Assembly: GCA_945948515.1 (NCBI GenBank)
Contig: CAMFBH010000002.1
Coordinates: 1 to 64,000, forward strand
Length of the DNA stretch: 64,000 nucleotides
Direction of reading: 5' to 3'
Origin: an uncultured Clostridia bacterium
Lineage (GTDB): Bacteria; Bacillota; Clostridia; Oscillospirales; Acutalibacteraceae
Shown here: piece after piece, positions 25,824 to 45,730 of the stretch
How the letters are laid out: each line of letters opens with the position of its first letter
How positions within the stretch are numbered: position 1 is the first letter of the stretch
Translations under genes and position numbers: made by a program
The notes under the pieces: generated by a model
Told to the model about the DNA's origin: nothing
Databases searched by the model: none
The model's input: only the letters and a program-made list of their open reading frames with translations

Positions 25824-28472
25824 TTAATATGTTCCCTCCATAAGGTCGGAGTAGATTGTCTTAACTTCACCGGAAGCAGTCTTGTAAGTTACGAAAGCAA
25901 CTGCTGTTGCTTTTGCGTTCTTAGCTGTGATACCGTAGCTGAGAGCGAACTGAGCATCTTCTGACTTATCCTGAGTATAAGCAATCTTAACTGTTGCGCC
26001 GTTAACAACTGTTCCAACTTTCTCTACGGTAAGATCAGATTTTGTCATAGCTTTACCGTAAATGAAACCAGCCTCAACGAGTGTGCCTGATTCAGACATT
26101 GAACGAGTTGCAAGGAACTCAAACTTGTGAGAACCTGTTACAGCAGTAACAGATACTTTAGCAACATAAGGTGCCTTTTCAACAGTCTCTGTTACAGGAA
26201 CAACTGTTACATTGGAACCAACGAAGAAAGTATATGTTGCGCCGTAGAATACAACTTTACCGTCGATCTTCCAAGCTGTTGCGCCGGGAGCAGAAACAGT
26301 TACCTGTGCATCATAAGCAAGACCTGCTAATGCATTTTCTGCATTTGAAGCGCCGGAAACGATTGTGCATCCGTTTGCTGTTACTGTGAAGGTGTTGTCT
26401 GCATCTGCAGTGTACTGAGCCATAACGGTTGTAGCAGCTGAGATAGTAGAAAGATCTACACTCCAGCTTGCGAATGTGTAACCGATATAAGCAGGAGCTT
26501 CGGGAGCGCTTGCAGGATTAAATGCCTCGCCTACTGCTGTTTCAACAGTTGCAATAACATTTGCATACTTATCTACGAATACAACTGTGTAAGTTGTTGT
26601 TGTAACTTCCTCATATACAGGAGTATAAGTTACAGGCATGTAAGCAGTTGAAACATAAGTTGTATCTTTTGATACAAGCTTGCCGTTCATAGCCCAACCT
26701 ACAAACTTAACGCCGTCAACCGGTGTAGCTGTAAGGGTGTAATCTGAACCGTAAGGAACATTCTTAGCTTCTGTTGCCTTATCTGCAACTGTTTCGCCGT
26801 TGATTGTTACAGCACCCATATCTGAGTACTCAACTGTTACCGGAACACCAAGTGCCGGGATAGGATCGCAACCGTCAATGATTACGCCGCAAGCGTCGCA
26901 CTTAGTACCTGCTGTTGTACCAGCTTCCTTCATTGTAGCAGGAACTTCAGGAACAACTGAAGTCGGACCTGCATGGTTTGAAGGATTCTTATCGATTACC
27001 TTCTGTGCTTCAAGAACTACCTTACATACGGAGCAAACTTTACCGTCTGTAAGTCCTGTTGCAACACAAGTAGCGGGTGTGCCGGTTACTACTTGCTCTG
27101 TATGACCGGGAGCAGGAATAACTGAACCTGCTTTAACTAACTTTCCGCAATCAAGACAGTATGTGTCGCCGGTATAACCATCTTCTGTACATTTTTCAGG
27201 CTTAGCGTTTCTAACCTCTGTTTTAGCATGTTCACATATAACAACATCAAGAACTTCAGTGTATGAATATCCGCAAAGTCTACATGTGTAGGTCTTTATA
27301 CCAGTATCTGTGTATGTGGGTTCCTGAGTCACTTCAGAAGAGAAGGAGCAAGGCTCTGCAGAAGTTACAACCTGGCCGCAAACATTACATGTTACGGAGT
27401 GTTTCTCATCAGCTTTGTTATCGCCGATACGAGTATAAGTCTTTGCGCCGTCGTGAGCACAAGTCTTAACAGGGATATCCTCTGTGTAAGTACCGTGACA
27501 TACAGAGCATGTGAAGGTCTTTATACCAGTCTCTGTGTAAGTGGGTTCTTTTGTTACAACGCCTTCATCGAATGTGCAATTCTCTGTTACTGTGTAGCCT
27601 TCTGAATGGTCACAATCAGCAGCTGTACATGTTGCTGTGTGAGTTTTAGCAGCTGCACCGTTATATACGGGATCGCCAAGTACATGTGTGTGTGAAGCGG
27701 AAACATTCATGCTGGGGATAACGAAGTTCATCGGTCCGCAAACATTTCCTGTTCCGTCGTCAGAAATTGTATTACTGTTGATAACTGAATCTAAGTCATA
27801 AGCTACGCAAGACAATCCTGCACGCTCAGTTACAGCCTGTGCAAGAGTACAGTCTGAATTGATTTTGATTGCGAATGTGCCGGCAACAAGATCTCTATCG
27901 CCAACATACATACCGTAATTGTAAGCATTCAAATCCATTGAAGCTAAAACGATAACATTCTCATCAACATTGTAAGCACCTGAACCATCAAGGAAGCCGT
28001 CACCGTAGTCGAAACTGGAACCGTTTGCAAGAACTGCTGTGTTAGCATTCTCGGTCCAAGTTTTACCTGTTGAGTTTGTTACACCAACAGTTGCATAAGT
28101 TTCGTCGATTGCATAGTTAATCTGACAGAAGCTCATGAATGTTACATCTTTAAAGATTGAAACAAGCTGAATCATATCGCCGGCTTTAAGCTGAGTTGTG
28201 TCGGTAATTTCTTCAGCAGCGTTAAGAGCATCCCAAGAAGTGATTTTGTCTGCTGCTTTTGTGTAGGGATAAGCTCTGAGTTCAACGGTGGGAACCTTCA
28301 TAAGTGCCGCACCGGTATTCAAGTCATATGCCCAGCCGTATGTATTGGGATCGTATTCATCACCGTATGCAAGGCCGTCAATGACATCTGCAGAAGCAGT
28401 AATCGGCATAACGCTCATAAGCATTAAAGCAGCAAGAAGCACTGCGATTACTTTTTTGAAGCTTCTTTTCAT
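25824..28472 (-). CDS. Secreted multidomain protein with CxxC repeats and Listeria-Bacteroides-type repeat
   Basis: The 882-residue protein has a signal peptide (residues 1-29, cut after ASA). Residues about 30-255 form a beta-rich region with a cohesin-like pattern (KAGDMIQLVSIFKDVTF). From about 258 to 540 come repeated segments with six CxxC pairs (CSVC, CNVC, CRLC, CLDC, CSVC, CDAC), resembling small zinc-ribbon or disulfide knuckles. Two beta repeats follow: about 548-620, and an InlB/Listeria-Bacteroides-type repeat at about 625-690. The C-terminal 150 residues are again beta-rich. No LPXTG, LysM or SLH anchor is visible. The ATG has GGAGG upstream. No specific function can be assigned. 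Confidence 0.8.
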   Translation of the reverse strand: MKRSFKKVIAVLLAALMLMSVMPITASADVIDGLAYGDEYDPNTYGWAYDLNTGAALMKVPTVELRAYPYTKAADKITSWDALNAAEEITDTTQLKAGDMIQLVSIFKDVTFMSFCQINYAIDETYATVGVTNSTGKTWTENANTAVLANGSSFDYGDGFLDGSGAYNVDENVIVLASMDLNAYNYGMYVGDRDLVAGTFAIKINSDCTLAQAVTERAGLSCVAYDLDSVINSNTISDDGTGNVCGPMNFVIPSMNVSASHTHVLGDPVYNGAAAKTHTATCTAADCDHSEGYTVTENCTFDEGVVTKEPTYTETGIKTFTCSVCHGTYTEDIPVKTCAHDGAKTYTRIGDNKADEKHSVTCNVCGQVVTSAEPCSFSSEVTQEPTYTDTGIKTYTCRLCGYSYTEVLDVVICEHAKTEVRNAKPEKCTEDGYTGDTYCLDCGKLVKAGSVIPAPGHTEQVVTGTPATCVATGLTDGKVCSVCKVVLEAQKVIDKNPSNHAGPTSVVPEVPATMKEAGTTAGTKCDACGVIIDGCDPIPALGVPVTVEYSDMGAVTINGETVADKATEAKNVPYGSDYTLTATPVDGVKFVGWAMNGKLVSKDTTYVSTAYMPVTYTPVYEEVTTTTYTVVFVDKYANVIATVETAVGEAFNPASAPEAPAYIGYTFASWSVDLSTISAATTVMAQYTADADNTFTVTANGCTIVSGASNAENALAGLAYDAQVTVSAPGATAWKIDGKVVFYGATYTFFVGSNVTVVPVTETVEKAPYVAKVSVTAVTGSHKFEFLATRSMSESGTLVEAGFIYGKAMTKSDLTVEKVGTVVNGATVKIAYTQDKSEDAQFALSYGITAKNAKATAVAFVTYKTASGEVKTIYSDLMEGTY
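27583..27700 (-). repeat. DNA-level copy of a Cys-rich module (copy in the 882-residue protein)
   Basis: This stretch encodes the HTHVLGDPVYNG to GYTVTENCTFDEGVV segment. It is closely similar in DNA to 30914-31030 in the 2102-residue protein gene, which indicates module exchange or duplication between neighbouring genes. Confidence 0.75.
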
Positions 28473-29057
28473 ATTGCATTTCCTCCAATTAAATGGGGTT
28501 TATTTTGTTTATAAACGAACAATTTTGCTTTTTGTTTTTTTGTTTATTAGCTGATAATTTTTAAACCTAAATATTATAACCGATATTCAGGTACAAATGT
28601 TTTGATCAAAACACTTGTTTACAATTGTTTTTGTAAACTAAGCGGCTTGCGCAATTCAAGCCAATGAATTTAAATACCGCAGCCAAAAAGCACAAACTGC
28701 AGCCCCTGCCACCGTAAACAACCGGCGGAGCAAGGTTATATTATAAAACCTGCTGAGCCGAAGACTGCGAAGCCCGGCAGATGTGATTAAACCCTAGCTT
28801 TTACATTTTAAAAATAAATAAAAACTTCATAATATAAAACGGTTTAATGTTAAAAAAAGTTTATAAAATTAAAAATAGATAAATGATCAAAACACACGGT
28901 GTAAATCACCGCCGAAGCCGGTCTGCAAGCTTCTCCGATTAAATCGAAGGGAAATATCGAAATAACCGCTTTTGTTTCTCTGACCTTACAAGCATAATAT
29001 ATTATCCGAACAGAAAAAATATTCGGAATCGGCGAAATAACTTCGTTTTTTTCTGCT
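28473..29057. other. 585-base intergenic region with palindromes and a structured segment
   Basis: No convincing gene lies here. On the minus strand, leading into the 882-residue protein gene, are a TATAAT-like box (28572-28577), a perfect 16-bp palindrome TGTTTTGATCAAAACA (28598-28613) and an inverted repeat GTTTACAA/TTGTAAAC (28617-28638). A GGCTTG/CAAGCC hairpin (28644-28662) and a GC-rich multi-hairpin stretch (about 28680-28790) follow. A second copy of the half palindrome TGATCAAAACAC lies at 28884-28895 within a possible minus-strand promoter, TTGATC-17-TTTATA (28862-28890). Confidence 0.5.
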
Positions 29058-30185
29058 TTATTGAAGAACTAAATCCGGATAAGTTACTGTTCCTACAGCA
29101 AAGAAAACATTAACAAGTCTCGCATCGGTAGCATTGATCTTTCCGTCTCCGTTAAGGTCATAAGCCGGATAAGATGTAAAGCTGCCCGAAGAATAAGCAA
29201 TGTTAAAGGCTCGCGTATCAGAAGCATTAATTGCTTCCTTAGCAGTATTATAGTTACAAGCACAAAGCGGAATATCCGCATTTTCTATTGCCGCACCGTT
29301 AACAACAAGAGTTACTGTTCTTGTTACGGCAAACTCTCCTGTAACGGTAACGGTATAGGTACCGTCTGCAAGAGCAGGAATAGTGTAGGTATTCGAAGTG
29401 AATTTAGTTCCGTCGTTTACAGCATCAGACTGAACCTCTGTAACAGTTCTTCCCTCTGCATCTGCAACTGTAAGGGTGCAGGTGTAAGGAACCGGCTTTG
29501 AAGCAGTTGACCCGTCAACCGTTGTCATAACATAAATATTTCCGGAAACATCGTAGCCGGCAACGGGAAGAACGGGTGAATAATCAATTTCCATTGGGAA
29601 GGTTGCATATTCATAGCCCGGGTAGGAGGTGTTTAAAGCATAGCACTCCTTTGAATCGCCGTGCTCTGTTTCAAGGAAGGTATAGTCGGGGCTTTCGTCC
29701 GCTGTAAAAATTGACGCGGCATCACAGGCTGAAACGGGAGTTACGGGAAGAGTGAAAAGCACTGCATCCTCCTCAACTCCTGAGCAAACGCTGTTTGTTG
29801 AAACCGCTGCAAAAACTATTTTAGTGTTTGAAACATCCGACATATCGGTGTTTATTGTTGTGTATGAATCAGACATTATACTTGTGAAGGTGCCTACGGC
29901 GGCCTTGGATACATCCACAGCTATAACTAGCTGAAGCCTTGCAACGGCAGTTACACCTGATAGCTTAAATGAGCAAGAGTACTCTGTTCCCGCCTCAAGG
30001 GCATTGCCGTCTGCAACCTCGCCGAGCGAGTTTTGATATTCGCAGTAAATTTTCGGAGTTTCCGTTCCGAGGGTCTGATTTCCGCCGTTTTCATCCTTTG
30101 CCGCAAGGGCGGTTAACGGTGCCGAAAGGCAAGCCGCTAAGCAAACTGATAAAAAAACAGCCAATAACTTTTTGGAAAAACTCAT
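29058..30185 (-). CDS. Secreted cohesin-like / beta-sandwich / dockerin protein
   Basis: The 375-residue protein has a signal peptide (1-29, TALA-A). Residues about 40-190 form a beta-sandwich that resembles a cohesin or cohesin-like domain (ALEAGTEYSCSFKLSGV, LFTLPVTPVSACDA). Residues about 208-312 form an Ig/carboxypeptidase-regulatory-like module (SGNIYVMTTVDG). The C-terminal about 60 residues are a type I-like dockerin; the second calcium loop DLNGDGKINATDARLV is complete while the first is degenerate. Dockerins bind cohesins to dock proteins on surface scaffolds. The last two modules are closely repeated in the neighbouring 2102-residue protein. GGAGG precedes the ATG. Confidence 0.8.
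   Translation of the reverse strand: MSFSKKLLAVFLSVCLAACLSAPLTALAAKDENGGNQTLGTETPKIYCEYQNSLGEVADGNALEAGTEYSCSFKLSGVTAVARLQLVIAVDVSKAAVGTFTSIMSDSYTTINTDMSDVSNTKIVFAAVSTNSVCSGVEEDAVLFTLPVTPVSACDAASIFTADESPDYTFLETEHGDSKECYALNTSYPGYEYATFPMEIDYSPVLPVAGYDVSGNIYVMTTVDGSTASKPVPYTCTLTVADAEGRTVTEVQSDAVNDGTKFTSNTYTIPALADGTYTVTVTGEFAVTRTVTLVVNGAAIENADIPLCACNYNTAKEAINASDTRAFNIAYSSGSFTSYPAYDLNGDGKINATDARLVNVFFAVGTVTYPDLVLQ
29078..29550 (-). repeat. Beta-sandwich plus dockerin cassette, copy 1
   Basis: This segment encodes the last about 165 residues of the 375-residue protein. It is similar in DNA and protein to 30340-30810, so the cassette has been duplicated or exchanged between adjacent genes. Confidence 0.85.
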
Positions 30186-30210
30186 TTTTTTCCTCCGATT
30201 GCTGTTTGAA

Positions 30211-30302: not shown

Positions 30303-30318
30303 CAAAATTAAATATTAC

Positions 30319-33300
30319 TTACTGAATTGTAAGTGCCGGATATGTTACTGTACCTACTGAGTAGAATACATTAACAAGTCTTGCATCTGTTGCGTTGATC
30401 TTACCGTCTGCGTTAAGATCATACTCAGGATATGCAGCAAAGCTACCTGATGAGTATGCAACATTGAATGCTCTAAGGTCAGCTGCGTTAATTGCTACCT
30501 TAGCTGTGTTGTAGTTACAAGCACAGATCGGAATATTAGCAGTTGTAATATCAGCACCGTTAACAACAAGAGTTACTGTTCTCGAAACTGCATAAGCGCC
30601 GGTTACAGTTACTGTGTATGTTCCGTTCGGAAGGTTCGGGATTGAGAATGTGTTCGAGGTGAACTTAGTTCCCGAGTTAACAGCTGTTGAAGTAACCTCT
30701 GTAACAGGTGTTCCCTCTGCGTTTGCAACAGTAAGAGTACAAGCATAAGGAACGGGCTTTGAAGCAGTTGCGCCGGCAGCGGTTGTCATAACATAGATGT
30801 TACCCGAAACAGTGTAGCCTGCGGGAGCAACAGAATATGTTCCGCCGCAAACAGTACATGTGTAAAGGGTTGAACCGTCGTCCTGAACAACACCTTGATC
30901 GAAGGTACAAGCTTCTGTTACTGTGTAGCCTTCTGAAAGGTCACAATCAGCTGCAGTACATGTTGCTGTATGTGTTTTAGCTTCTTCACCGTCATATACC
31001 GGAGTTCCGAGTGTATGAGTATGAGATGCTTCTTCAACATAAGGAACAAGAGCGTTTTCAGCAAGCATGAGATCCTTACGGATTGAGAATGTTGTTGTGT
31101 AGTTCTGAGACACTTCAGTTCCGTCTTCATTGGTTAAAGTGCCTGCTTTGTAATCTACAGCCTTATTATAAGCTGCAACATAGTTATTCCAAGATTCAGT
31201 TGTGTAAAGCTGAGTTTCGGAAGCATCTACTGCTGCTTTAATAGTGTTGTAGTGAGTGATTTCCTCATCAAGCTTTGTGAAATCTACGCCACGGAAGCTG
31301 AGGTAATCCCAATATGTGTTGAACACACGAATTGCTTCATAAATCTCAAATGAAGAAGCTGTTGTTGAAATCTCTCTTGAGTTTGAAGTCCATACGAAAT
31401 CACTTGCATTAAGCTTAGCTTCGTCAGTCTTGTTTTCGTTATCAGCTTCAAGAGCCTTTTCAAAGTCAGCCCACTTGAGGTTTGTGTAAACAGGTGTTGC
31501 ACCTTCAAGGAAGATGGGCGCACCCTTTTCGTCGTAAATAACTTTGCCGTACTTATCTCTCTCACATGATTCTACACTGTAGAATGTGTAGATATCATCA
31601 ACTGTGATAAGAGCTTCTGCATCTCTTGCAGCCTTAGCCATCTTCTCGTATGTAATAACATCATAGTTAACATTATTCATACCTGCACGCTTCTCTGTAA
31701 CCATGTTATAAAGAATTTCTGCAGCTGAAGATGAAACCTTAGTTTTTGCAATTTCAAGAGCATAATTGAGCTTATCGTTTGCTTTGAGGTAGATACCGCG
31801 GTTTTCTGCGCCGGGTGTTACACCAAGGTAGGTTTGGGGTATCTTATATCTCCAAGCAAGCTCTGTTGTTCCGGAAATTGTTGTGTCGGAACTACAAGCA
31901 CCGCCTTCTGCATTTTTGTAATCATACTGATCAATACTATAAAGAGGAAGTACATTGCCCTGAGCATCTTTAGTTGTTTTCTGAGTTTCTGTTGCTGCAT
32001 AGTACGGATTCTCGAAGAAGTCTCCCGTACCTGAGCCCATATCCTTCCACACATACTCATATGCAGGAGCGTTAATGAAGCGATAATCGCCTGTTTCTGA
32101 ATCAAGCTCCATTGTTGCCTTCTCAGCAGCGGAAAGCATGTCGTAACCTGCTTCATTCAGCTTAACATTGGTGTAAACAGGAACTGTTCCTGCTTCATCA
32201 ACATAATAGTAGCCGTCAACTAAATAGAAATCTTTAACCATATCATCGGGAAGAGATGTTGCCTTTTGGTAAACAGTTTCACCGAGTCTTGCTGTTGTTT
32301 CCTTAGTTGTTACCTGAGTTGACTTAATGGAAGCGATTCTGTTTGTTGTGTCAAGAGCAGTTGTGTTGTTGATGGGAGTACCCAAAGCCTTAACAGCTGC
32401 TTTTGCACTATTAAGAACATAGTTATATGTTTCTGATGTTTCTGTTGAGCTGTTGTAATCAGCAAAGTCTTCGGGCTTATATGTTGACATAAACTCAAGT
32501 GCCTTGCTGTAGTCTTCATTGAGCTTAACAGATTCGGTATCGTCTGCAACAGTGATTGTCCACGGAACGGTCTTCTTACCGTCGTCGTTACGGAAGAAGC
32601 AAACATTCGTATTGGTTGACTGTGCTTCGATATCTGTTTTGCCGTCCCACTTAAGGAACTGAACATATTTTGTTGAGTTATTTACTATCTGCTTCTGCAT
32701 TGAGAAGTAGATTCCGTCGATACCTGTTGACCAAGTCGGGTCAGAATTTGCATAGCTTGCATTGAAGGTTGTTGACATATCACCGTCGAGGAGTACGTCT
32801 GAACCTTGGAGCTGAACCTGCTTGCCGTTATATGTACCGTCTGCATTCTGATAATTAGCAAGAGCCTCACGAAGGATACCTCCTGCAGACGCCTCAGCAA
32901 GAGTAAGAGCTACATGGTATCTTGTTGCTGTGATTGTAGGATCGTTTGCTTTCAAGCTGTCAATATCAGACATTAAATAAGCACCGCGTACCCATGTACC
33001 GGCGGGTGTGCCGTCTTCATTCTGAGTCGGTTTACCGTTTTCATCAAGAACTGACTTGAAGTAGTCATAATAGTTCATGTTGATGATATCACCGGTATCC
33101 ATATCAACGGTGGGAATACCGTATGCCTGATTATCTGTGTAAGCGAAAACGCCGTCGATAGCCCAGTCTTTTGAAGCTTCGTTTACGATACGAACATTGA
33201 TTTTATCAAGCTGAGTAATCATTGACTTCTTGATAACAACATTCTTAGGATACTGAATGTACATGTGCTTATATTTTACACCGGAAAGCGCTCTCTTAAT

Positions 33301-36300
33301 ATAGTTAGAAGCCTTTGTATAGTTGTCTTCTGTGTCCCTAGCAAGCTCATTCTTGAAGGTTCCGTCTTCGTTATAAACTGCATCATACCAGTCATAGTCT
33401 GTTGTTACGAACTGATAAGCAGAAGCAGTAAGTCCTGTATAATTGTTTCCGTCCTTATCCTTAATGAGTGTTCCGTTCTGGTCAACATAAGAATAGGAAA
33501 CAAGGAACTCTGCAAGATACTCGCCGTTTTGATCAAGTTGTGAAGAAGAAACTGAATAGCTAACGGGAACTTCACCGATAGCATCGGGAGCAACAAGTGC
33601 TGCCTGTGAAGGATTGGTTGCAACAACCGAACCTGTATTTACATGAGTGATTGTATCAACTCTTACATATACACGGCTTGCGGGAATTACATCGCCTGCA
33701 GCATTGATATATGCACGGTTAATACCGAGTGAATTGTTGTGAACGCATACATAGTTGGAAATTGTGCTTCCGGCTGTGTATGAGTTCTTAGTAGCTTCTT
33801 TCATATAGATATCTGTACCGCTGAGCTTGAAAGCTGAAATCTGAGGTACAAATGAAGGTATGAAGTTGTTTACAGCTGTAACAATATACATTGCACCCTC
33901 CCAGCATGTATCCTGGCAGGTTCTGTAACAGCTTCCTCCGAAGCCTTCATAAACGCGGCAGATAAATCTTCCGATAACACCGATATCAGCGGAAACTCCT
34001 GAAGCGCCTGCGATATTAGCAATCTGAAGGAATGCATCGAACGGGCTTGACTTATCTGCTGTTCTTGCGAGGATGAGATCTCCGCATTTATCATTCGAAT
34101 CGCGAGCGCCGATTACGAAGTTGAGCATCTTCTGAAGAACATCGTAAACAATATCAACAATGCTATCACTCTGGAAGTAGTGAGTCTTAAGAGCATCAAT
34201 GATTGTTGTAAGAGCAGTTGAAACACCCTGGTTAGGACCGATATCAAGCATACCAAGAATTAACTTCTCATAGATAAGGTCTTGAGTGTCAAGATTGCCC
34301 TGACCGTAACCAAGCATTTCACCGAGATCGGGAAGAAGCTTGTTAACAATTAAGCTAAGGTTCTGCCAAAGGCTATTTGTTTGCTTAATTGCGCAAGTTG
34401 TAAGAGCGCCTGAGCCTGTGCCGCACTTGAAATCAGTGAAGCCAAGGAGGTTACCTATACCGCAATCAACTGCGTAGTAGCATACAACAGAATTGAGAAG
34501 ATCAAAGATATCATCTGATGCTGATGCAGTTACAACACCGTTGGTTGAATCATAAAGCTTATAAATGTTCCATACAGAACCATCTTTATTTGTAAGAGGA
34601 ACAATGGACTCAAGGATGTAGCACAAAGCATCGCGTGCCATCGGAAGAATTACGCCTTCAATGCTTGCATTGTAAGCTGTAATATTACCTTCTGAATCCT
34701 TTGTTGCTTCAGTAAGAAGAGCTGTGTAATCATACTCGGGAACGATGTATGAGAGATACTCTTCAAGACAAACATAAGCAACATCCTCTGCATCTGTACA
34801 TGCAAGCCACTTGCTGTCATGTACCTGCTTAACATCGGCTGAAGCCTTAATTACTGCGATCATAAACGGAACCATTGCTGATTCAACATTTGCCTCTGTA
34901 ATCTTTGCATCTGCGCCGTTATCTGCATAGAACTGAGCAAGAATATTTGCATCTGTTTCATCGCCTACATACTGAATAAGTGTGCAAGCATTTGAGATGA
35001 GTGTGCTTACGATTGTTGCTGTGTCTAATGTGTTTCCGGTTTTTGCGAGTGTTCCGTCCTGAAGGGTCGGGAAGAGCTCATAAAGAAGAGCTACAAGGAA
35101 ATCGTTAAAGCCCTGGATAACACCGGTGTATGCGCTGAAATCAAAGGTGAATACATCTCTGAACAACAGCTTTTCGCCAACATTTGCTTTAAGTAAATAT
35201 GTTTCTGTTATACAAAGGTTAAGAATACCGTTTTCACAACCAAGCTCTGCAGCAAGAGGACTGTAAAGAAGCTTCTGGAAGAGAGCTTCGGCATCTATAT
35301 CCTGGAAAGTGTACTTTTCGCCGTCTGCTTTTTTATTAGCAGTAGTTCTGTCGTGCCTGTTGTAGCAAATCTTAAGTGCATTGATAACATCTGCAACAGA
35401 TGAAGCTGATGTTACATTAACAAGGCTCGGGCAGATATTGTTAAGCTCGTCAACAACTCTTTCAAGGTTAGAAATGTTGTTTCCGTTTGTATCCTTAACA
35501 ATGTCACCGTTCCAATCATATGAAATAGGATCGGAAAGCCAAGTTTCAACAGACTGCTTGCCGTTAACTTTCATATAATCGTTATAAATGTTATCAATAT
35601 TCAAATGAGTGTACTGAACCTGGATTCTTCCGAAGAGTGAAGAAAGAACAGATTCCCATACCTGCTGGAATGCAACGAAAGCTCTCTCTGCAAGGTTGTT
35701 CTGCTGACCGATTGCGTAATCGCTCTTAAGAGCATGACCTGCATAAGGATAATATGAGCTGTCTGAACTCATATCAGTTGTTGTAACTGTATCTTTATTC
35801 CAAGAACCGTCTTCGTTCTTCTGTGCCCATTTGTATGTATTAACAGAAGCGTCGATACCTTCAATCTTCTGAAGAAGATCTGTTGAGAGAAGGCTCATTG
35901 CCATGTCATCAAAAGTGAGTCCCATTAAGTAGTTGTACTTAGCAAGACCCTCTTCTGTTGTTTGGTCACAGAAAGCACCAACCATAACCGGCTTAAGAAT
36001 ATTATAAACCATGTTGCTTTGGTAGCCGGCTTCAAGTCCGAGTTTTCCGCCGAGCAGACCGTATAGATCAAGGGCGCTTGCAAGACCGAGGTCGAGCTGT
36101 CCGAGAAGGAACTGCTTTAAGATGTTGCTACCTGCAAAATCATTAGACATAATGTAGATATTCTGAGCAATTGCCATAATGATTTCTTTTGCAGAATTTG
36201 TGCTGCGGTTTGAAAGATTTGAAATAGGTGAAAGATCTATATTCTTAACATCACCGCCGAGAAGACCCTGATATTTTTTAACAAGTGCCCAAACATCATC

Positions 36301-36627
36301 AACAAGAATCAACACATTATCAACGCTGTCAATCTTGCCTTCAAGGTCTATCTGAAGCGCCTGCAATGCTTGAAGCGGTTTCATATGAACCGATACTGTC
36401 AGATTAACGCCTGCAAGCACCTCATCAAGCCAGTCGAGAACCGCGCCGGCTGTCTGCTCATCTGTAAGCTCTGCCCATGCCATGAAATTCCAAGCAATGT
36501 TGTTATCATGGTAATCAGGGTCTTTAACTGCCGCAAATGCCTGGAAAGCACCTGTCATGCAGCTGAGAGCCATAAGAAGAGCTAAGAACAAGCTAAGCAA
36601 ACGCTTTGAAAATTTCTTAACTTTCAC
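30319..36627 (-). CDS. Giant secreted protein (2102 residues) with C-terminal dockerin
   Basis: A signal peptide (1-32, AFA) is followed by about 950 residues of predicted helical, Leu/Ile/Asn-rich sequence with no recognised family. A beta-rich middle follows (about 960-1450), then helical segments resembling FIVAR-type surface repeats; the clearest is around 1800-1860 (YTTESWNNYVAAYNKAVDY). Residues about 1865-1930 are the Cys-rich module shared with the 882-residue protein. Residues about 1935-2035 are the Ig-like module and about 2040-2100 the dockerin with DLNADGKINATDARLV, shared with the 375-residue protein. GGAGG precedes the ATG. It is divergent from the equally large 37295-44830 gene. 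It is probably surface-docked; no enzymatic motif was found. Confidence 0.82.
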   Translation of the reverse strand: MKVKKFSKRLLSLFLALLMALSCMTGAFQAFAAVKDPDYHDNNIAWNFMAWAELTDEQTAGAVLDWLDEVLAGVNLTVSVHMKPLQALQALQIDLEGKIDSVDNVLILVDDVWALVKKYQGLLGGDVKNIDLSPISNLSNRSTNSAKEIIMAIAQNIYIMSNDFAGSNILKQFLLGQLDLGLASALDLYGLLGGKLGLEAGYQSNMVYNILKPVMVGAFCDQTTEEGLAKYNYLMGLTFDDMAMSLLSTDLLQKIEGIDASVNTYKWAQKNEDGSWNKDTVTTTDMSSDSSYYPYAGHALKSDYAIGQQNNLAERAFVAFQQVWESVLSSLFGRIQVQYTHLNIDNIYNDYMKVNGKQSVETWLSDPISYDWNGDIVKDTNGNNISNLERVVDELNNICPSLVNVTSASSVADVINALKICYNRHDRTTANKKADGEKYTFQDIDAEALFQKLLYSPLAAELGCENGILNLCITETYLLKANVGEKLLFRDVFTFDFSAYTGVIQGFNDFLVALLYELFPTLQDGTLAKTGNTLDTATIVSTLISNACTLIQYVGDETDANILAQFYADNGADAKITEANVESAMVPFMIAVIKASADVKQVHDSKWLACTDAEDVAYVCLEEYLSYIVPEYDYTALLTEATKDSEGNITAYNASIEGVILPMARDALCYILESIVPLTNKDGSVWNIYKLYDSTNGVVTASASDDIFDLLNSVVCYYAVDCGIGNLLGFTDFKCGTGSGALTTCAIKQTNSLWQNLSLIVNKLLPDLGEMLGYGQGNLDTQDLIYEKLILGMLDIGPNQGVSTALTTIIDALKTHYFQSDSIVDIVYDVLQKMLNFVIGARDSNDKCGDLILARTADKSSPFDAFLQIANIAGASGVSADIGVIGRFICRVYEGFGGSCYRTCQDTCWEGAMYIVTAVNNFIPSFVPQISAFKLSGTDIYMKEATKNSYTAGSTISNYVCVHNNSLGINRAYINAAGDVIPASRVYVRVDTITHVNTGSVVATNPSQAALVAPDAIGEVPVSYSVSSSQLDQNGEYLAEFLVSYSYVDQNGTLIKDKDGNNYTGLTASAYQFVTTDYDWYDAVYNEDGTFKNELARDTEDNYTKASNYIKRALSGVKYKHMYIQYPKNVVIKKSMITQLDKINVRIVNEASKDWAIDGVFAYTDNQAYGIPTVDMDTGDIINMNYYDYFKSVLDENGKPTQNEDGTPAGTWVRGAYLMSDIDSLKANDPTITATRYHVALTLAEASAGGILREALANYQNADGTYNGKQVQLQGSDVLLDGDMSTTFNASYANSDPTWSTGIDGIYFSMQKQIVNNSTKYVQFLKWDGKTDIEAQSTNTNVCFFRNDDGKKTVPWTITVADDTESVKLNEDYSKALEFMSTYKPEDFADYNSSTETSETYNYVLNSAKAAVKALGTPINNTTALDTTNRIASIKSTQVTTKETTARLGETVYQKATSLPDDMVKDFYLVDGYYYVDEAGTVPVYTNVKLNEAGYDMLSAAEKATMELDSETGDYRFINAPAYEYVWKDMGSGTGDFFENPYYAATETQKTTKDAQGNVLPLYSIDQYDYKNAEGGACSSDTTISGTTELAWRYKIPQTYLGVTPGAENRGIYLKANDKLNYALEIAKTKVSSSAAEILYNMVTEKRAGMNNVNYDVITYEKMAKAARDAEALITVDDIYTFYSVESCERDKYGKVIYDEKGAPIFLEGATPVYTNLKWADFEKALEADNENKTDEAKLNASDFVWTSNSREISTTASSFEIYEAIRVFNTYWDYLSFRGVDFTKLDEEITHYNTIKAAVDASETQLYTTESWNNYVAAYNKAVDYKAGTLTNEDGTEVSQNYTTTFSIRKDLMLAENALVPYVEEASHTHTLGTPVYDGEEAKTHTATCTAADCDLSEGYTVTEACTFDQGVVQDDGSTLYTCTVCGGTYSVAPAGYTVSGNIYVMTTAAGATASKPVPYACTLTVANAEGTPVTEVTSTAVNSGTKFTSNTFSIPNLPNGTYTVTVTGAYAVSRTVTLVVNGADITTANIPICACNYNTAKVAINAADLRAFNVAYSSGSFAAYPEYDLNADGKINATDARLVNVFYSVGTVTYPALTIQ
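30340..30810 (-). repeat. Beta-sandwich plus dockerin cassette, copy 2
   Basis: The matching C-terminal cassette in the 2102-residue protein gene. Nearly every residue pattern of copy 1 is kept, including NYNTA, INA.D.RAFN and the DLN.DGKINATDARLVNVF loop. Confidence 0.85.
30914..31030 (-). repeat. DNA-level copy of the Cys-rich module (copy in the 2102-residue protein)
   Basis: Counterpart of 27583-27700. The encoded segment starts HTHTLGTPVYDG and includes CTAADC. Confidence 0.75.
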
Positions 36628-37294: not shown

Positions 37295-40200
37295 ATGAAA
37301 ACGAGCAAAAAGTTACTCAGCCTGTTTTTGGCTGTAGTAATGGCTGTCAGCGCTTGCTCTGTCGGCTTCACGGCGTTCGCCGCGGACGAGAGCACAAAAG
37401 TGTTTCAGCAGCCAACCGGCGCAGATGCTACATTTGAAGCATTGAACAGCGCTGTGAACCAACTCAAGATTGACGGCAAAAGCATAAGCGAACTTGTTGC
37501 CAGTCTTTCACCCACTCTTCTGAATGCCCTCGGCGGTTCAGGAAGCATGAGCAGTATTATCGGTGAAAACAGCATTACCCCCTTCTCCGACACATACTAC
37601 AAATATCTGAACAATTCCGACGGCGGAATGAACTATTGGTCTCTTTTAGGTTTCACAAGAAATAACCTTTCCAATTCCGACAAGGCAACAAAGGATTATT
37701 CTCAAGAAACATATGACAAAATCAAGGATTTCTACAAAGAGTACCAAAATGCAGATTCCCAGGCTACAGCTGCATTTAATGCTGCTAAAAAAGAAATTCA
37801 CAGAATGTTTGGTTTCGGTAACGAATCTGAAGCAATTGCCACTTTCGCTGACACCAAAGATGGTGATCCTGCTCCCCGTTATCTCACCATTTCGGAATTT
37901 GATGATTACAGCGTTTCAAATGCAGACGGTTCAAAAACCGTTGCTTTAAAAGAGGTTGGCGATTCATTCAACGGAATTGACCTTAAGCCTTTCAAGCAGT
38001 ATATGTCCGGAATTCTTAAGAAAACAAATGTTCAGCCCAAGGATGGTTTGGAATTCACTACAGCTGAATGCTGCTACTACTATTTCAATGATCCGCACTA
38101 CACAACCGGTCTCTACTACTACCTTATTCTCCAAAGCAGAGATTCCGTAACCCTTGATTTTGAATCAGTAGAGCTTGGTCCTAAGGTTACAGTAACAAAG
38201 AACGATGATGTGTTTGAAAAAGTATTCAATGAACTTCAATTCACTGATGAAACTATTGTTGAACTTCTTCTTATGCTCTATGGCGAAGACGGTCTCGGTG
38301 TAGTAGATTCAAACGGCGATGTTGTTTCTGATGCTGCCGGAATTGCGGACGCCTTTGGTATTCCGGGAACAACACCCGCAGAAGTAGCTCCCTATCTTAA
38401 AGCTAATTTCAATTCAGTGCTTGACTCTTTCCTCACAATGCTTATCGGTTTGGAAGGAGGATTCGGTGCAAACGAATTTGCAAGAAGCGAATACTTCTAC
38501 GACATGGTTTGTACTGTTCTTGTTGAAGGCGGCGTTTTTGCAAACAAAGAAGCGATTGATGCAAAAAGAGAATCAGCAAAGGCAACAACGGACGAGCTTG
38601 ATATTCTTGTTAAGCTTGCAAAAGAAACATACAATTCAAACGATGATTCTAAGAACAAGAGAGAGTTTGTTGCTGCTCTTATGCCCAACATCAACGCTCC
38701 TACAGGCGGCAAATCACCCGTTGAAGGAGTAAGCGATGTTACCGCATGGTATGTTTGCTACGCGCTTAACGACAATACTTTAAACTTTAAGAATGATATT
38801 CAGGGCGATTCTTCAAATTTCAGAAATATGGTTTTGAACAATTCCCTTGATTATTTCAACTACAGCCTTGCTTGTAACTATCTCTATGAGAGATCCGCAA
38901 GCGGAACAACATCGGTTGAATGGAACCCCTCAACAATCTACCTTAACTATGTTTACGACTATTTAACATTTGTTAAACCCGTTGTTGATAATTCCGGAGT
39001 TTCCTACAAATGGTCCGTTTACAAACCCACCGACGAGGTTGCCGTAAGAATGGTAAACACTCTTCTCAACAATCTTCTTGTTGATGAAAAAAAAGGTATT
39101 CTCAACAATAAAGTCGTTGTTGGAGTTCTTGACAACCTTCTTAGAACCAAGGTTGATCTTGCTAAAGCTCTCGACAATGTTTACCTCAATCTTTATACCT
39201 CACCGGTTGAAACTATAGCTAAGCTTCTCCCTGTTCTTGTTGTTCTTATCGACGAGGTTCTTGTTCCGATTCTCTTTAATGCACAGGGTGACCTTTATTA
39301 TAACGAGGGCAACGGTCTTCTCCTTGACCTTCTTACCGATAAAACAATCACTATCGGCAAGGTTGTTAAAGACCTTATCGGAATAGATATTGAAAGTTGG
39401 ACTCAGGACGCAGAAAGTGCAGTAGGTATCGGTTCTCTCCGTTTTGACCTCAACACTCTTCTTCCCGATCTCCTTCATTGGCTCCAGGGCGATACAAGTT
39501 ATACATATACCTATTATGATTTCACAAAGTATGATGCAGACGGAGCTGAAATTTCCGAAAGATCTCTTATCAAGGTTGATAAAACAAATGAAAAGGGAGA
39601 GGTAGAAAAGGATGATGACGGAAATCCTGTAAAGAAAACCATTATCAATCCTGCTATCAAGAGAGTTGTTTACAGAGCTACAACAACCGGCACATACAAC
39701 AAATCCAAGGTTCCGGTAATCACAAATATCTTCTGCGTTGACGAATTACTCGCAGGTGCAGAGATTGCAGACCTTCACAAGCTTGTTAAAGGCGATACCG
39801 GAGTTGATACCGGAGTTATTGTTGAAGAAGTTGTTGCAGAGCTTGCTTTCTTCTTCACGGATTCTATCGACGCTTATCTCGACGAGCATGCTACAGATCA
39901 GCGTATCGGCGTTGATTCCAGCGGTCCTTATCCGATTACAACCGGTGCAAACGATATTCTCGTTGCTCTTCCTCAGATAATTGATAGAGCAGGTAAGAAT
40001 TTCGTTGCTAAATACGGAATCGACTCCGATTGGAGCTACGGTAACATCGGTCAGATTGATATTACCAATAAGAACGATACCATTACCGAAAAGCTCACTG
40101 TTAACGAAACTCTTGAAGCTTTCAAGGCTAACGCTTCCGATCCTGATACATCGAATATCCTTCAGGGACTTATTTCAATCATCACGGATAACTGGCTCAA

Positions 40201-43200
40201 TGCTTTGATTGACCTTCTCAACAGCGTTGTTGCAACAGACAATAAAATTTCAAGTGAACTTCCGATAGTTGCAGGCCTTCTTAATTCTCTCGGCGGTCTC
40301 GGAGAGCAGAGCATTCTCACCGATGTTCTCAACGGCGTATTCCAGCTTACAAGAACAGATGATTGCTCCTTCACTCTTACACAGAGAGGCGATGGCTTCC
40401 TCGGTCAGAAAAATCACTATGTCGGACTCAGCAACGACTCAGGCTTATTCCTTATTTATAATATTGTTAACCTCGTTGATGCAATCAAGGGTATTGTAAA
40501 AAGCATCAACAATATACCTAAATCACCTTCATCGGACAACAGCAGCAGCAGTTCATCAAGCTCAACACCTGTTTCTCCGTATGTTACAACAAATTCCGTA
40601 AAATCATCAGATATCCTTACAGATACAAACAAGGCTTCGGCTAAGTCAATTATCGGAACTCTTGACGATATGCTTGCAGGACTTCTTGCTGAGTCATCTC
40701 TTAACGGATATAATCTTGATTCAACGGCAAACATCCTCACCGCTCTTGCTTCATTCGGTTCAAACTATCTCGGTTCAGGTAATACAAATGCTCTTCTCAA
40801 GCTTGTTAACACATATATGGGCTACCTCAACTGTGAAGATTTCAATAGCACAACAAAGAATCCGAACGCAAACGGCGATGTTGATCCCAACAAGCTTTAC
40901 ACAAGCGAACACCTTTCAAATCTTGTTATTCAAACCTATTCTTTGCTTGAGGATATTATTTCCTATGTAATTACAGACACAGCAAAGATTAAGGATTATA
41001 CTGTAAACGGCAAAAACTACAACCTTCTTACAGAAGCTCTGTCAGGTATCATCTCTCCCGATACAGTTGCAACAAGAGTTATTAATGATAAAACTGCTCT
41101 TTCTTATAAGTCTTATGAAAAAGATGTTCTCGGAAGAGACTCTTGGAAAGATGTTAAGAGCATAACATTTGATTTCAAGGCAGGAGATAAGGCTTCCTTC
41201 TATAAAGGTATTGCAGAATCACTCCGTCTTGTAACATCAATTCTCAGCGTTGTATTTATAGATGCAGGCTACTACGATTCTCTCGTTCAGCCCGTTCTTG
41301 CTGCTCTTGTTGAAAAGCAAAGCGCAGCAGTTAAGAATTCGGTTTACGCAGTAGGAACAGTTAAGACAGCCGATGATGTTCTCTTCTGCTTGCTTAATCC
41401 TATCAGCGCACTTCTTTCCGATTTCTATAAGAAGCCCGTTACGGTTCTTCTTCAGTTAGTTCCCGGATTGGCAAAGATTCTTGACAATACAACAACTCCG
41501 AATATCGCCGGAATTGTTACGGCGGCAACTGCTCCTCTTAAAGGAGAGATCGTCGGACTCGGAAACATTGTTAATTATGCTACTCCTACCGGCGCTAAGA
41601 AGATTTACGAGCTTACAGCTAAACTTAATGTTGATGTTTCAAACTTCGACCTTGTTTCAACTCTCAACGGCGCTCTCAAGAAATTAGGCATCGTTCTCGG
41701 TCCTATCAACTGGAACGCTCTTGCTAACAGCGCTTCAACAGAGGAAACTCTTCTCAGAATAGTTGCATACCTTATTAATACTATTACTGATGACGACAAT
41801 CTCAACGCAATTATCGTTCTTGCTAAGCTTACAGGTAAGCAGAATGTTATTGATCTCTTCCAAATGTTAGCTCAGCTTGATGCTAAGAAGATTCTCAACA
41901 TACTTAATGAGGTTCTTGCCCTTACAGACGAGCCCACTCTCGTTTATTGGACCTTCAGCCAGTATGTAACAGAAGCAGTTACAGGATTTAAGTATCCTCT
42001 CGGAGTATCAAAATCCGATGCTGAAAACGCAATCGGTCAGCTTGATTCACTTGTTGCAAACATCTTCCCGCTTCTCAGCGGATTCGGACTTGATGTTGCA
42101 GACAATCTTCCCGAGATTGTTAACGACAATCTTTACACAAACAAGCTTCTCACAACAATTGCAGTTTCTCTTTACGCTGCTCTTGAAGGTGAGGTAGGAA
42201 CTTATCTCGGTTATGTAGGAATCGCAACCTCCACAGATGATGTTGCAAAGCTTCTTACAGACAGAAGCTACGGTAAAACCTTCTCATCGGCAGCTAAAAC
42301 AATTAAAGCTGCAAAGAGCTGGAAGGCTCTTAAGAAAGCTGTTGAAGCTAAGAAGAATCCCAAAACAATCAACTGGGGCTTCAAAGACGGCTCAAAGAAT
42401 GCTAAGCAGGGCTTCCTTAACGGACTTGCAGCAATCCTCCGTCCTCTTAACAGTGTTCTCACCTTCGTTCTTGCAGGTGACGGTCTTGAGCTCGGAAACA
42501 TGCTCTCAGGTCTTGTTTCCGGCTTAACAATCAAAGAAACCGCTACACAGTTCAATAAGGATAACGAGAACGGCGGAACTCTTAAGTATTCACTTAAGAA
42601 AGGTATCCTTACTCTTAAGATTAAGAGCAACAACAAGTCTGTTACAGGCGCAGCAATGGGCTGGAATGAAATTAAGCTTGACCTTAACGCTGTTGTTAAA
42701 CAAATCAAAGACCTTGAGCTCTATGGCGGAAACGCTTATGAAAACTCAGTAGTTCCGCTCCTTGAGGCATTCAAGTGCACAGGTCTTAAGACTTATGCTC
42801 AGTACACAGCAGATATTGAGAAGGCAAAGGACAATGTTCTTCTTGATGTTCTTAATCCGCTCTTCGGATTTGTTGATGAACTTCTTGAAGCTCCGTTTGA
42901 TACAATAACCGGAGTTCTTCCGAATGTTGCATACTTCATTGACAACAACGGTGTTTCACAGCTTCTCAACAACTTACTCGCTCCTATCACTCAGCTTCTC
43001 CCCGTTCTTAAAGAAAACGGACTTGATGTTGAAAAGATTATTGAATGCTTCCTTGGAACTTCAATTAATCAGGCAATAACAAAGCTTCTCGGTGTTAATA
43101 TTCACCTTGATCTTAACGACCTTAATAAGTGTGATATTCAGAATGCTGTTATCCCGCTTGTTAACAAGCTTCTTAAGAACTATAAGATTAAGCTTCCCAA

Positions 43201-44830
43201 GATTGATTGGGGAACACTTGCTGGTCACGGAACAGTTAAAACCGTTAAGAGCGCTGCTCTCAACGCAGAAGGCACTTACACAACCAAGCAGGTAACTGCA
43301 AGACAGGGCGAAACTCTTATTGCTGTTCTCAGGTATATCCTTGATGCAGTAATCGATAATATGTCTGCTATCAAGAAGCTTGTAAGCGGCATTAAGATGG
43401 ATAAGAAGATTAAAGATATTCTTAATCCTGTATTCACTCAGCTCGGAGCAACAACCTCCGACGATGTAATCCGCGCAATATTCTACTTGCTCACAGAAGA
43501 ACCCACAAATGCCTTCTGGGATTACACAGATTATAAGACAAAGTCTTACGACTTCACATATCCTGAAGGAATCGAAGATTTCTGCGTAAATCTCGGACCT
43601 ACTGTTGACGGACTTATCAGCGGTATCATTTCAGGCGGACTTGCAGGTCTTGTTGAAAAGAATGTTTATAAAGACAGCATTATCAACACGATTGCAAAGG
43701 CTCTCTATCAGGCACTTCAGGGTGTTGACCTCGGCAGCATGGGCTCACTTGTTGATCTCCTTGCAATGACCGATATCAACTTCACTACTCAGAATGTTGC
43801 TAAGCTTCTTACAGATAAGAATTACGGTAAGACCTATGAGCAGGCAGCTAAGGTTATTGCCGCTCAGAAGACTTGGGATAAGGTTAACTTCGATAACATC
43901 TCTTGGGGTGTTAACGACAGAGACAGCTTCCTCAATGCTCTTTGCGCAATCCTCCGTCCCGTTTACGGAGTTCTCGATGTTCTCTTTAACGGCGGTTCAC
44001 TCGGCTTATTCAAGCTTATTTATCTCCCCGGAAGCAACGGCTACACAAACTCGGTAGTTCCGCTCATGGAGGCACTCAGCCTTTACAACATTAAGACTCA
44101 GTATCAGTACAGAGAAGATATCAGCAAGGCTTACGATAATATCCTTCTTGATATTCTCAATCCTCTGTTCGACTTTGTTGAGGATCTCCTTAACGCTCCT
44201 CTTCAGACTCTTTCTGATAAGATTCCGAACCTTGCACTCTTCATTGCAAACAACGGATTACTTCAGTTGATAGACAATCTTGTTACTCCTATTACGGCTC
44301 TTCTTGATGCACTCAAGCCCGTAATTGACCTCAATGAGCTTCTTCCTCAGATTCTTAAGGCTCTCAATGTTGACCTCAAGGGCTTCAAGATTGACCTCTA
44401 TCACATTTCAAACATGGTTGAACCCTACATCGGTCAGGATAAGATAGTTGATTCACTCAACTCTCTGCTTGCTTCAATTAAGATTGGCGGCGCTCCGCTT
44501 AACCTTAAACTCCTCCCGATTGACTGGTTCCAGCTTGCAAGCCACGGCGATGTTAAGATTTCCGCTTCAATGGCTGCAACATACGGCTCAAGAGTTTATG
44601 TTGAAGCAAACGCTGCTGAAACCTTAATCGCAGTTCTCAGATATCTGATTGCAACAATCCAGTCCGGTGACAACCTCACAGTTATAAGCAACCTCATCAG
44701 CGGTCTTCTCGGAGATGCAGATGAATCCGTAACAGGTATTATTGATACCGTTCTCGGAATGCTTATGGACTACAAGGGCGACGACCTTATTGCTCAGATA
44801 GGCGATCTCCTTGAAACACTTGCCGGATAA
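37295..44830 (+). CDS. Giant secreted repeat protein (2511 residues), unknown family
   Basis: The ATG at 37295 is 11 bases after AAAAGGAG and opens a clear signal peptide (MKTSKKLLSLFLAVVMAVSA, cut after AFA). Frames further upstream extend into the leader and are unlikely. The protein is mostly amphipathic helix, rich in Leu, Asn and Asp. Its second half repeats a unit of about 440-500 residues, with motifs IDW..LA..G (near 1470, 1969 and 2408), LNPLF.FV..LL..P (near 1367, 1853 and 2288) and LLTD..YGKT (near 1651 and 2169). A more divergent copy may start near 630. A Ser-rich linker lies near residue 1081. No dockerin, LPXTG or other anchor is visible. No family was recognised. Confidence 0.8.
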   Translation: MKTSKKLLSLFLAVVMAVSACSVGFTAFAADESTKVFQQPTGADATFEALNSAVNQLKIDGKSISELVASLSPTLLNALGGSGSMSSIIGENSITPFSDTYYKYLNNSDGGMNYWSLLGFTRNNLSNSDKATKDYSQETYDKIKDFYKEYQNADSQATAAFNAAKKEIHRMFGFGNESEAIATFADTKDGDPAPRYLTISEFDDYSVSNADGSKTVALKEVGDSFNGIDLKPFKQYMSGILKKTNVQPKDGLEFTTAECCYYYFNDPHYTTGLYYYLILQSRDSVTLDFESVELGPKVTVTKNDDVFEKVFNELQFTDETIVELLLMLYGEDGLGVVDSNGDVVSDAAGIADAFGIPGTTPAEVAPYLKANFNSVLDSFLTMLIGLEGGFGANEFARSEYFYDMVCTVLVEGGVFANKEAIDAKRESAKATTDELDILVKLAKETYNSNDDSKNKREFVAALMPNINAPTGGKSPVEGVSDVTAWYVCYALNDNTLNFKNDIQGDSSNFRNMVLNNSLDYFNYSLACNYLYERSASGTTSVEWNPSTIYLNYVYDYLTFVKPVVDNSGVSYKWSVYKPTDEVAVRMVNTLLNNLLVDEKKGILNNKVVVGVLDNLLRTKVDLAKALDNVYLNLYTSPVETIAKLLPVLVVLIDEVLVPILFNAQGDLYYNEGNGLLLDLLTDKTITIGKVVKDLIGIDIESWTQDAESAVGIGSLRFDLNTLLPDLLHWLQGDTSYTYTYYDFTKYDADGAEISERSLIKVDKTNEKGEVEKDDDGNPVKKTIINPAIKRVVYRATTTGTYNKSKVPVITNIFCVDELLAGAEIADLHKLVKGDTGVDTGVIVEEVVAELAFFFTDSIDAYLDEHATDQRIGVDSSGPYPITTGANDILVALPQIIDRAGKNFVAKYGIDSDWSYGNIGQIDITNKNDTITEKLTVNETLEAFKANASDPDTSNILQGLISIITDNWLNALIDLLNSVVATDNKISSELPIVAGLLNSLGGLGEQSILTDVLNGVFQLTRTDDCSFTLTQRGDGFLGQKNHYVGLSNDSGLFLIYNIVNLVDAIKGIVKSINNIPKSPSSDNSSSSSSSSTPVSPYVTTNSVKSSDILTDTNKASAKSIIGTLDDMLAGLLAESSLNGYNLDSTANILTALASFGSNYLGSGNTNALLKLVNTYMGYLNCEDFNSTTKNPNANGDVDPNKLYTSEHLSNLVIQTYSLLEDIISYVITDTAKIKDYTVNGKNYNLLTEALSGIISPDTVATRVINDKTALSYKSYEKDVLGRDSWKDVKSITFDFKAGDKASFYKGIAESLRLVTSILSVVFIDAGYYDSLVQPVLAALVEKQSAAVKNSVYAVGTVKTADDVLFCLLNPISALLSDFYKKPVTVLLQLVPGLAKILDNTTTPNIAGIVTAATAPLKGEIVGLGNIVNYATPTGAKKIYELTAKLNVDVSNFDLVSTLNGALKKLGIVLGPINWNALANSASTEETLLRIVAYLINTITDDDNLNAIIVLAKLTGKQNVIDLFQMLAQLDAKKILNILNEVLALTDEPTLVYWTFSQYVTEAVTGFKYPLGVSKSDAENAIGQLDSLVANIFPLLSGFGLDVADNLPEIVNDNLYTNKLLTTIAVSLYAALEGEVGTYLGYVGIATSTDDVAKLLTDRSYGKTFSSAAKTIKAAKSWKALKKAVEAKKNPKTINWGFKDGSKNAKQGFLNGLAAILRPLNSVLTFVLAGDGLELGNMLSGLVSGLTIKETATQFNKDNENGGTLKYSLKKGILTLKIKSNNKSVTGAAMGWNEIKLDLNAVVKQIKDLELYGGNAYENSVVPLLEAFKCTGLKTYAQYTADIEKAKDNVLLDVLNPLFGFVDELLEAPFDTITGVLPNVAYFIDNNGVSQLLNNLLAPITQLLPVLKENGLDVEKIIECFLGTSINQAITKLLGVNIHLDLNDLNKCDIQNAVIPLVNKLLKNYKIKLPKIDWGTLAGHGTVKTVKSAALNAEGTYTTKQVTARQGETLIAVLRYILDAVIDNMSAIKKLVSGIKMDKKIKDILNPVFTQLGATTSDDVIRAIFYLLTEEPTNAFWDYTDYKTKSYDFTYPEGIEDFCVNLGPTVDGLISGIISGGLAGLVEKNVYKDSIINTIAKALYQALQGVDLGSMGSLVDLLAMTDINFTTQNVAKLLTDKNYGKTYEQAAKVIAAQKTWDKVNFDNISWGVNDRDSFLNALCAILRPVYGVLDVLFNGGSLGLFKLIYLPGSNGYTNSVVPLMEALSLYNIKTQYQYREDISKAYDNILLDILNPLFDFVEDLLNAPLQTLSDKIPNLALFIANNGLLQLIDNLVTPITALLDALKPVIDLNELLPQILKALNVDLKGFKIDLYHISNMVEPYIGQDKIVDSLNSLLASIKIGGAPLNLKLLPIDWFQLASHGDVKISASMAATYGSRVYVEANAAETLIAVLRYLIATIQSGDNLTVISNLISGLLGDADESVTGIIDTVLGMLMDYKGDDLIAQIGDLLETLAG
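41150..44820 (+). repeat. Tandem coding repeats of about 1.3-1.5 kb in the giant gene
   Basis: Three successive units encode the order LRP/LR..-LNP..-..NNG-IDW/INW..LA-ETL..VLRY. The last two copies are closest to each other, suggesting recent internal duplication towards the 3' end. Confidence 0.75.
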
Positions 44831-44963: not shown

Positions 44964-45000
44964 ACTGTCATATAATACTTTTTTTGCGGTGGTGAAAAAT

Positions 45001-45717: not shown

Positions 45718-45730
45718 TAAGGGGATTTTT

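Follow-up and report, generated by a model that had tools for sequence, protein, structure and literature searches.

A conserved gene block with cohesin- and dockerin-bearing proteins: a candidate minimal assembly without glycoside hydrolases in an uncultured Clostridia bacterium

Genes and domains of the block

The stretch of DNA analyzed here (the window) comprises the first 64 kb, positions 1 to 64,000, of contig C2 (CAMFBH010000002.1) in the genome of an uncultured Clostridia bacterium of the family Acutalibacteraceae (GCA_945948515.1; 1.69 Mb, 55 contigs, completeness 99.9%) and contains four neighboring genes for proteins of 882, 375, 2102 and 2511 amino acids (aa; Table 1). The 2102-, 375- and 882-aa genes form, in this order, one series on the same strand, and the 2511-aa gene is divergently transcribed from the opposite strand. 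Three of the four proteins carry the modules of a cohesin-dockerin system, and we propose that the locus probably encodes a minimal assembly of this kind without a glycoside hydrolase, in which the 882-aa protein would be the shared receptor of the 2102-aa giant and the 375-aa protein. A first-pass annotation, made from the letters alone, had described all four genes as encoding signal-peptide proteins, and inspection confirmed the four open reading frames (ORFs) and a signal-peptide-like stretch at the start of each protein.

The two modules that this annotation had seen on more than one protein were both recovered. The C-terminal cassette, an Ig-like X module followed by a dockerin, is common to the 375- and 2102-aa proteins (78% identity over 167 aa, E 4e-81), and one CxxC module is common to the 882- and 2102-aa proteins (61% identity over 82 aa, E 1e-24; residues 1858-1932 of the giant). 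The wider picture of modules shared among all four proteins holds for these three and fails for the 2511-aa protein, which matched the others in BLAST comparisons in the signal-peptide region only and is without CxxC module, cohesin, X module or dockerin. Its membership in a docking set through shared modules is not supported, and it is linked to the other three by conserved position only.

The 375-aa protein was modeled by AlphaFold with a mean predicted local distance difference test (pLDDT) of 88.2 and a predicted template modeling score (pTM) of 0.57, indicating reliable individual domains whose arrangement relative to one another is uncertain. The top Foldseek matches of this model were 4fl4_C (E 6.7e-11) and 3kcp_A (E 2.4e-10), which represent the cohesin-X-dockerin end of CipA. 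The structural aligner VIA placed residues 41-372 on 4fl4_C with a Z score of 14.8 and a large root-mean-square deviation (rmsd), because the placement of the domains differs, and the X-dockerin half alone (residues 210-371) on 2b59_B with a Z score of 13.2 and an rmsd of 3.2. The cohesin-like N-terminus suspected in the first-pass annotation is likewise supported by fold prediction (Table 1). Single-sequence Pfam searches gave no match for the N-termini of the 375- and 882-aa proteins, and Dockerin_1 was found exactly at its cut-off in the former (Table 1) and below it in the 2102-aa protein (18.3 bits). Among 29 homologues of the 375-aa protein, Pfam detected Dockerin_1 in 17 and Cohesin in five (best E 1.7e-6). 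A profile of the N-terminus built from the first four homologues yielded chance matches in the PDB only, and 29-30 homologues were needed; the family profile retrieved the X-dockerin dyads of scaffoldins, namely 4u3s_B (E 1.5e-13), 3kcp_A (4.5e-11), 2b59_B (1.3e-10) and 5g5d_B (2e-9). The cassettes of the 375- and 2102-aa proteins are X-module-dockerin dyads, homologous to 4u3s_B, 2b59_B and 5g5d_B, and by its predicted structure the 375-aa protein has the domain order Coh-X-Doc, the same as in CipA CohI9-X-DocII. It is both socket and plug, a point that the first-pass annotation had missed, and with one cohesin and one dockerin on a secreted protein without a catalytic domain it has the content of a monovalent adaptor scaffoldin. 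In the block dockerins of the host the first repeat (CNYNTAKEAINASD) has no canonical calcium-binding loop and the second loop (DLNGDGKINATD) is canonical; most relatives have two canonical loops in each dockerin.

The 882-aa protein consists of a signal peptide, a cohesin-like domain, CxxC modules, repeats of the InlB/Flg_new type, for which the Pfam matches (Flg_new, InlB B-repeat) are weak, and a conserved C-terminal domain. Pfam Cohesin matched only one of the 30 members of its N-terminal family, and weakly so (E 0.0014). The profile of this family (A5), however, matched type II cohesins in the PDB (5g5d_A, E 1.1e-8; 3l8q_A, E 3.9e-7), and a hidden Markov model built with the host sequence left out found the host N-terminus at E 3.2e-11, with none of 2000 shuffled sequences reported up to E 10. 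Moreover, hhalign aligned this family with the 375-aa cohesin family (A8) at a probability of 93%, and 5g5d_A, its best PDB match, and 5g5d_B, which ranks among the best matches obtained for the plug family, are partners in one solved type II complex. Together these matches support, at the level of family profiles, the assignment of the 882-aa N-terminus as a type II-like cohesin, in line with the cohesin-like pattern noted earlier. The C-terminal approximately 110 aa of the protein (window 25827-26165) are conserved in the fully read homologues, have no Pfam match and recur on another host protein (contig C5:76936-77253); a function of this domain as an anchor is possible.

Table 1. Positions of the genes of the block and of their domains in the window.
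Feature	Position	Strand	Remarks
882-aa ORF	25824..28472	-	conserved 3' gene of the block
Cohesin-like N-terminal domain of 882-aa protein	27699..28391	-	HMM match residues 56-215
CxxC modules of 882-aa protein	26853..27740	-	six CxxC motifs, residues 322-528
375-aa ORF	29058..30185	-	Coh-X-Doc protein (predicted), monovalent-adaptor architecture
Cohesin domain of 375-aa protein	29571..30062	-	residues 42-205; VIA 6kge_A Z 12.7, rmsd 2.9, 129 aligned
X module (Ig-like) of 375-aa protein	29265..29561	-	XDoc match 2b59_B; PDB profile 4u3s_B
Dockerin of 375-aa protein	29061..29264	-	Pfam Dockerin_1 22.9 bits
2102-aa giant ORF	30319..36627	-	GTG start
N-terminal region of 2102-aa giant	33748..36537	-	residues 31-960, predicted mainly alpha-helical
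CxxC module of 2102-aa giant	30832..31056	-	shared with 882-aa protein
X-dockerin cassette of 2102-aa giant	30322..30822	-	residues 1936-2102; 78% identical to 375-aa cassette
2511-aa giant ORF	37295..44830	+	2535 aa if upstream TTG used
C-terminal long internal repeats of 2511-aa giant	41612..44827	+	relatives in other genomes

Conservation, matched dockerins and covariation

The order of a divergent 2511-like gene followed by the 2102-like, 375-like and 882-like genes recurs across three genera: the block was found in the genus g22 and, in each of two further genera, in one genome, namely the host and G034. The same gene order was present at loci from 24 g22 genomes, a few of which have split large ORFs, and G021, G171 and G253 show it as well. 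At one locus (G308) the contig ends short of the 2511-like gene, and in G034 unknown bases interrupt the 375-aa homologue and a separate short contig holds the 882-like genes. In g22 as a whole, 56 of 80 genomes matched the 375-aa profile in some way, X-dockerin-only matches included. The first-pass annotation had set co-conservation of the genes beforehand as a check, and had stated that N-termini without a cohesin fold, or genes that are not kept together, would speak against its idea; the block is retained in three genera, and both N-termini gave cohesin matches.

Within each genome the two dockerins of the block are matched. In all 29 genomes compared, the giant dockerin closest to the 375-aa dockerin was the one encoded in the same genome, and in 27 of the 29 the 375-aa dockerin was nearer to the dockerin of its own giant than to that of any orthologous 375-aa protein. 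The median identity between 375-aa and giant dockerins was 0.68 within and 0.28 between genomes. The adjoining X modules showed such same-genome matching in only 11/29 and 7/29 genomes.

The X-dockerins also change together with one of the two cohesins. Several partial Mantel tests were run on distances among 25 genomes, with the bodies of the two giants controlled for. In the 375-aa protein and the 2102-aa giant alike, X module and dockerin correlated with the 882-aa cohesin at r 0.63-0.83, compared with 0.15-0.32 for the 375-aa cohesin. At the level of sequence distances the X-dockerins thus covary with the 882-aa cohesin and far less with the 375-aa cohesin that lies between them. Linkage alone is an unlikely cause of this pattern, because the 375-aa cohesin, physically located between both X-dockerins, should then have covaried too. 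When the X modules were also controlled, the correlation of the giant dockerin with the 882-aa cohesin persisted as a shrunken signal (r 0.24, p 0.001), and the X modules kept strong correlations (0.70 and 0.50).

The giants, the neighboring genes and other dockerins of the genome

The 2102-aa giant consists of a signal peptide, a long body without a recognized fold, one CxxC module and the X-dockerin, and its family profile (A6) clearly matched X-dockerin structures only (4u3s_B, E 1.1e-13). The AlphaFold model of residues 31-960 was of moderate confidence (pLDDT 68.8, pTM 0.68), and in the PDB it had no Foldseek match at E <= 0.001 and a best Z score of 3.5. At this level of confidence (pLDDT 69), the missing match is not taken to show a new fold. 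For the 2511-aa family no relative of note was found in Pfam, NCBIfam or the PDB, and kinship of the two giants was rejected, as hhalign aligned the signal-peptide region only. Of 250 genomes sampled from the family, 36 contain stretches related to the C-terminal repeats of the 2511-aa protein, within open frames as long as 9406 aa, and no known domain was found in the repeat region or in the related loci (L082-L106). The 2511-like protein of one relative (L170:9644-19903) is longer than 3400 aa, and a portion of its repeat region appears to be duplicated.

A search of the host genome with Pfam Cohesin (PF00963) gave nothing at E <= 10, which reflects the limited sensitivity of this model, as the family profiles find both domains. 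The 375-aa and 882-aa cohesin profiles each found only their own gene, the latter at E 9.4e-33 with its own sequence inside the profile. Two single cohesin-like domains, both in this block, were therefore detected in the genome, and no scaffoldin with tandem cohesins was detected. Dockerins, on the other hand, also occur outside the block: five further dockerin proteins are encoded elsewhere in the host genome, three with leucine-rich repeats (BspA-type), one with a CotH kinase domain and one without a Pfam match. The CotH protein (L015:8074-13344, contig C13) is a secreted protein of 1756 aa with an N-S-R-D-Y dockerin.

In total, seven dockerin proteins were detected in the host genome, and none carries a glycoside hydrolase, although divergent dockerins could be missed. 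The earlier observation that no glycoside hydrolase is fused to the dockerins is thereby borne out for all seven, and the term non-enzymatic scaffold used for the set stands in this respect and is weakened by the CotH kinase domain on one dockerin protein outside the block. The motif N-[AS]-R-D-Y is present in all five non-block dockerins and in no block dockerin. It occurred in 18/18 members of the first dockerin set, most of which had been viewed before the motif was written. A single conserved class of non-block dockerins was kept for the host and rejected for a related genus on an independent set. In the genus of G021 further dockerin classes with the internally repeated motifs NNRD, NTKDL and NATD were seen on secreted proteins (L235-L264), and some of these dockerins sit away from the C-terminus.

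Downstream of the 2511-aa gene (window 44989-49145, + strand) lie genes for a NUDIX protein, a small membrane protein, an NTP_transf_5 nucleotidyltransferase and an alpha-galactosidase-like protein, several of which are also found beside the block in relatives. Rfam matches elsewhere in the window comprise a class A RNase P RNA (23970-24301, - strand) and a T-box leader (15992-16222, + strand).

Proposed assembly, alternatives and known systems

Taken together, the domain architectures and the covariation make it likely, in our judgment, that the locus specifies a minimal cohesin-dockerin assembly with the 882-aa protein as shared receptor. In this assembly the type II-like cohesin of the 882-aa protein would be the socket, and the X-module-dockerin dyads on the 2102-aa giant and the 375-aa protein the matching plugs, so that both proteins would bind to the 882-aa protein, as the covariation suggests. 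The 375-aa protein would act as a monovalent adaptor that docks by its X-dockerin and makes its own cohesin, which differs from that of the socket, available to further dockerin proteins, for which the five non-block N-[AS]-R-D-Y dockerin proteins of the host are candidates. The pair of plug and socket would be private, its sequence shifting from species to species with both plugs of a genome staying matched. A location of the assembly on the cell surface, as suggested in the first-pass annotation, and a structural or adhesive role of the giants would be in keeping with this model.

Several results weigh against this proposal. The 882-aa N-terminus of the host is divergent, with 13-26% identity to its relatives and no Pfam match of its own. 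Neither an SLH nor an LPXTG anchor was found on the 882-aa protein (Pfam; motif inspection), and none of the four proteins has an LPxTG motif or a recognized cell-wall anchor. The N-[AS]-R-D-Y motif of the candidate cargo occurs in only 10 of the 30 best dockerin matches across the related genus. Shared ancestry is not entirely eliminated by Mantel tests, and with the X modules controlled the correlation of the 375-aa dockerin with the 882-aa cohesin was marginal (r 0.12, p 0.09) and that with the 375-aa cohesin weakly positive (r 0.22, p 0.03). Finally, fourfold synonymous sites were compared between the two block dockerins as a test for gene conversion. Their pooled identity was 0.52 within genomes, above random, and 0.43 between genomes, and about 0.8 of the sites were equal in G253, G303 and G274 (L125, L126 and L143), which suggests recent gene conversion in these three genomes.

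The synonymous sites bear on the reading that the matched dockerins are the product of concerted evolution by gene conversion between the cassettes, which are neighboring direct repeats, and would then say nothing about a shared partner. As a general explanation we consider this unlikely. The block dockerins of the host are 80% identical as proteins, yet only 9 of 24 fourfold sites are equal (0.38, compared with 0.37 expected from codon usage), and in the host and several other genomes synonymous sites agree no more often, or hardly more often, than by chance, although 55-80% of residues are the same. Since the synonymous sites between its cassettes look random, recent conversion does not appear to explain the dockerin match in the host. 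The match, moreover, peaks in the dockerin and falls off sharply in the neighboring X module, and selection for a common partner would be the simplest account of the matched dockerins in the host genome.

A different partner is assumed in a head-to-tail polymer, in which the X-dockerin of the 375-aa protein would bind the cohesin of neighboring copies to form a fibre, the nearly identical X-dockerin of the giant would cap it, and the 882-aa protein would not be the main receptor. The presence of cohesin and dockerin on one protein and the weak residual correlation between the two (r 0.22-0.32) fit this arrangement. However, conservation is far stronger in the 375-aa cohesin than in the dockerins, this cohesin covaries with them far less than the 882-aa cohesin does, and its correlation with the giant dockerin is nil once the X modules are controlled (r -0.02), so that we regard a polymer as quite improbable. 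That the genes are instead a vestige of a lost cellulosome, derived from an enzyme-bearing ancestor with modules that are now adhesive or mere spacers and do not dock specifically, would agree with the lack of a detected dockerin glycoside hydrolase in the host, the degenerate first calcium loop of its block dockerins and the enzyme-bearing system kept by another gut lineage, Limousia (PMC12997984), but is very unlikely, because three genera retain the intact block and the host dockerins are matched at synonymous saturation, which argues for current selection.

The known role of cohesin-dockerin pairs is chiefly the docking of enzymes. If the receptor model is true, the block would add a second role, in which no glycoside hydrolase takes part, a giant bears the plug, and plug and socket change together between species. 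The approximately 25-30 natural plug/socket pairs would allow the evolution of cohesin-dockerin specificity to be tested and provide candidate orthogonal pairs for protein engineering. More tentatively, and with considerable doubt on our side, the pair might have been selected to be species-private, as a plug and socket for self-recognition by which giant surface proteins assemble only on their own cells; if so, cohesin and dockerin would here be put to a non-catalytic use with a species-specific code, built around giants of undescribed fold.

Among known systems, the closest likeness is to the type II anchoring pair of C. thermocellum and Acetivibrio cellulolyticus (4fl4, 3kcp, 2b59, 5g5d, 4u3s), which likewise has the order Coh-X-Doc in one protein, an X-dockerin as plug and another secreted protein that bears a type II-like cohesin. 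In contrast to that pair, no SLH repeat was seen on the block receptor, the plug is also fused to a giant, and the sequences of plug and socket differ strongly between species. Type II pairs have been described as relatively plastic across species (PMC12484212), and the divergence of the block plug and socket would predict the opposite. By domain content the 375-aa protein fits the monovalent adaptor scaffoldins, defined as a dockerin with a single cohesin (PMC11557425); these were described in cellulosome producers, whereas only two cohesin-like domains, and no glycoside hydrolase with a dockerin, were detected in the host. Within the Acutalibacteraceae a mucinolysome has been reported from Limousia, with tandem-cohesin scaffoldins and many dockerin-bearing carbohydrate-active enzymes (CAZymes; PMC12997984). 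It is likewise a cohesin-dockerin system of a gut Clostridia lineage, but neither tandem-cohesin scaffoldins nor dockerin CAZymes were found in the host. Single cohesins and pairwise contacts are also a feature of the X82 system of Clostridium perfringens, where, however, glycoside hydrolases carry the cohesins and dockerins (PMC12997984). CipA-type systems differ from the block in their long array of cohesins, in place of which it has one, and in the dockerin glycoside hydrolases. As neither such enzymes nor tandem cohesins were found, the block is not a cellulosome, and by analogy it resembles the type II anchoring step of one.

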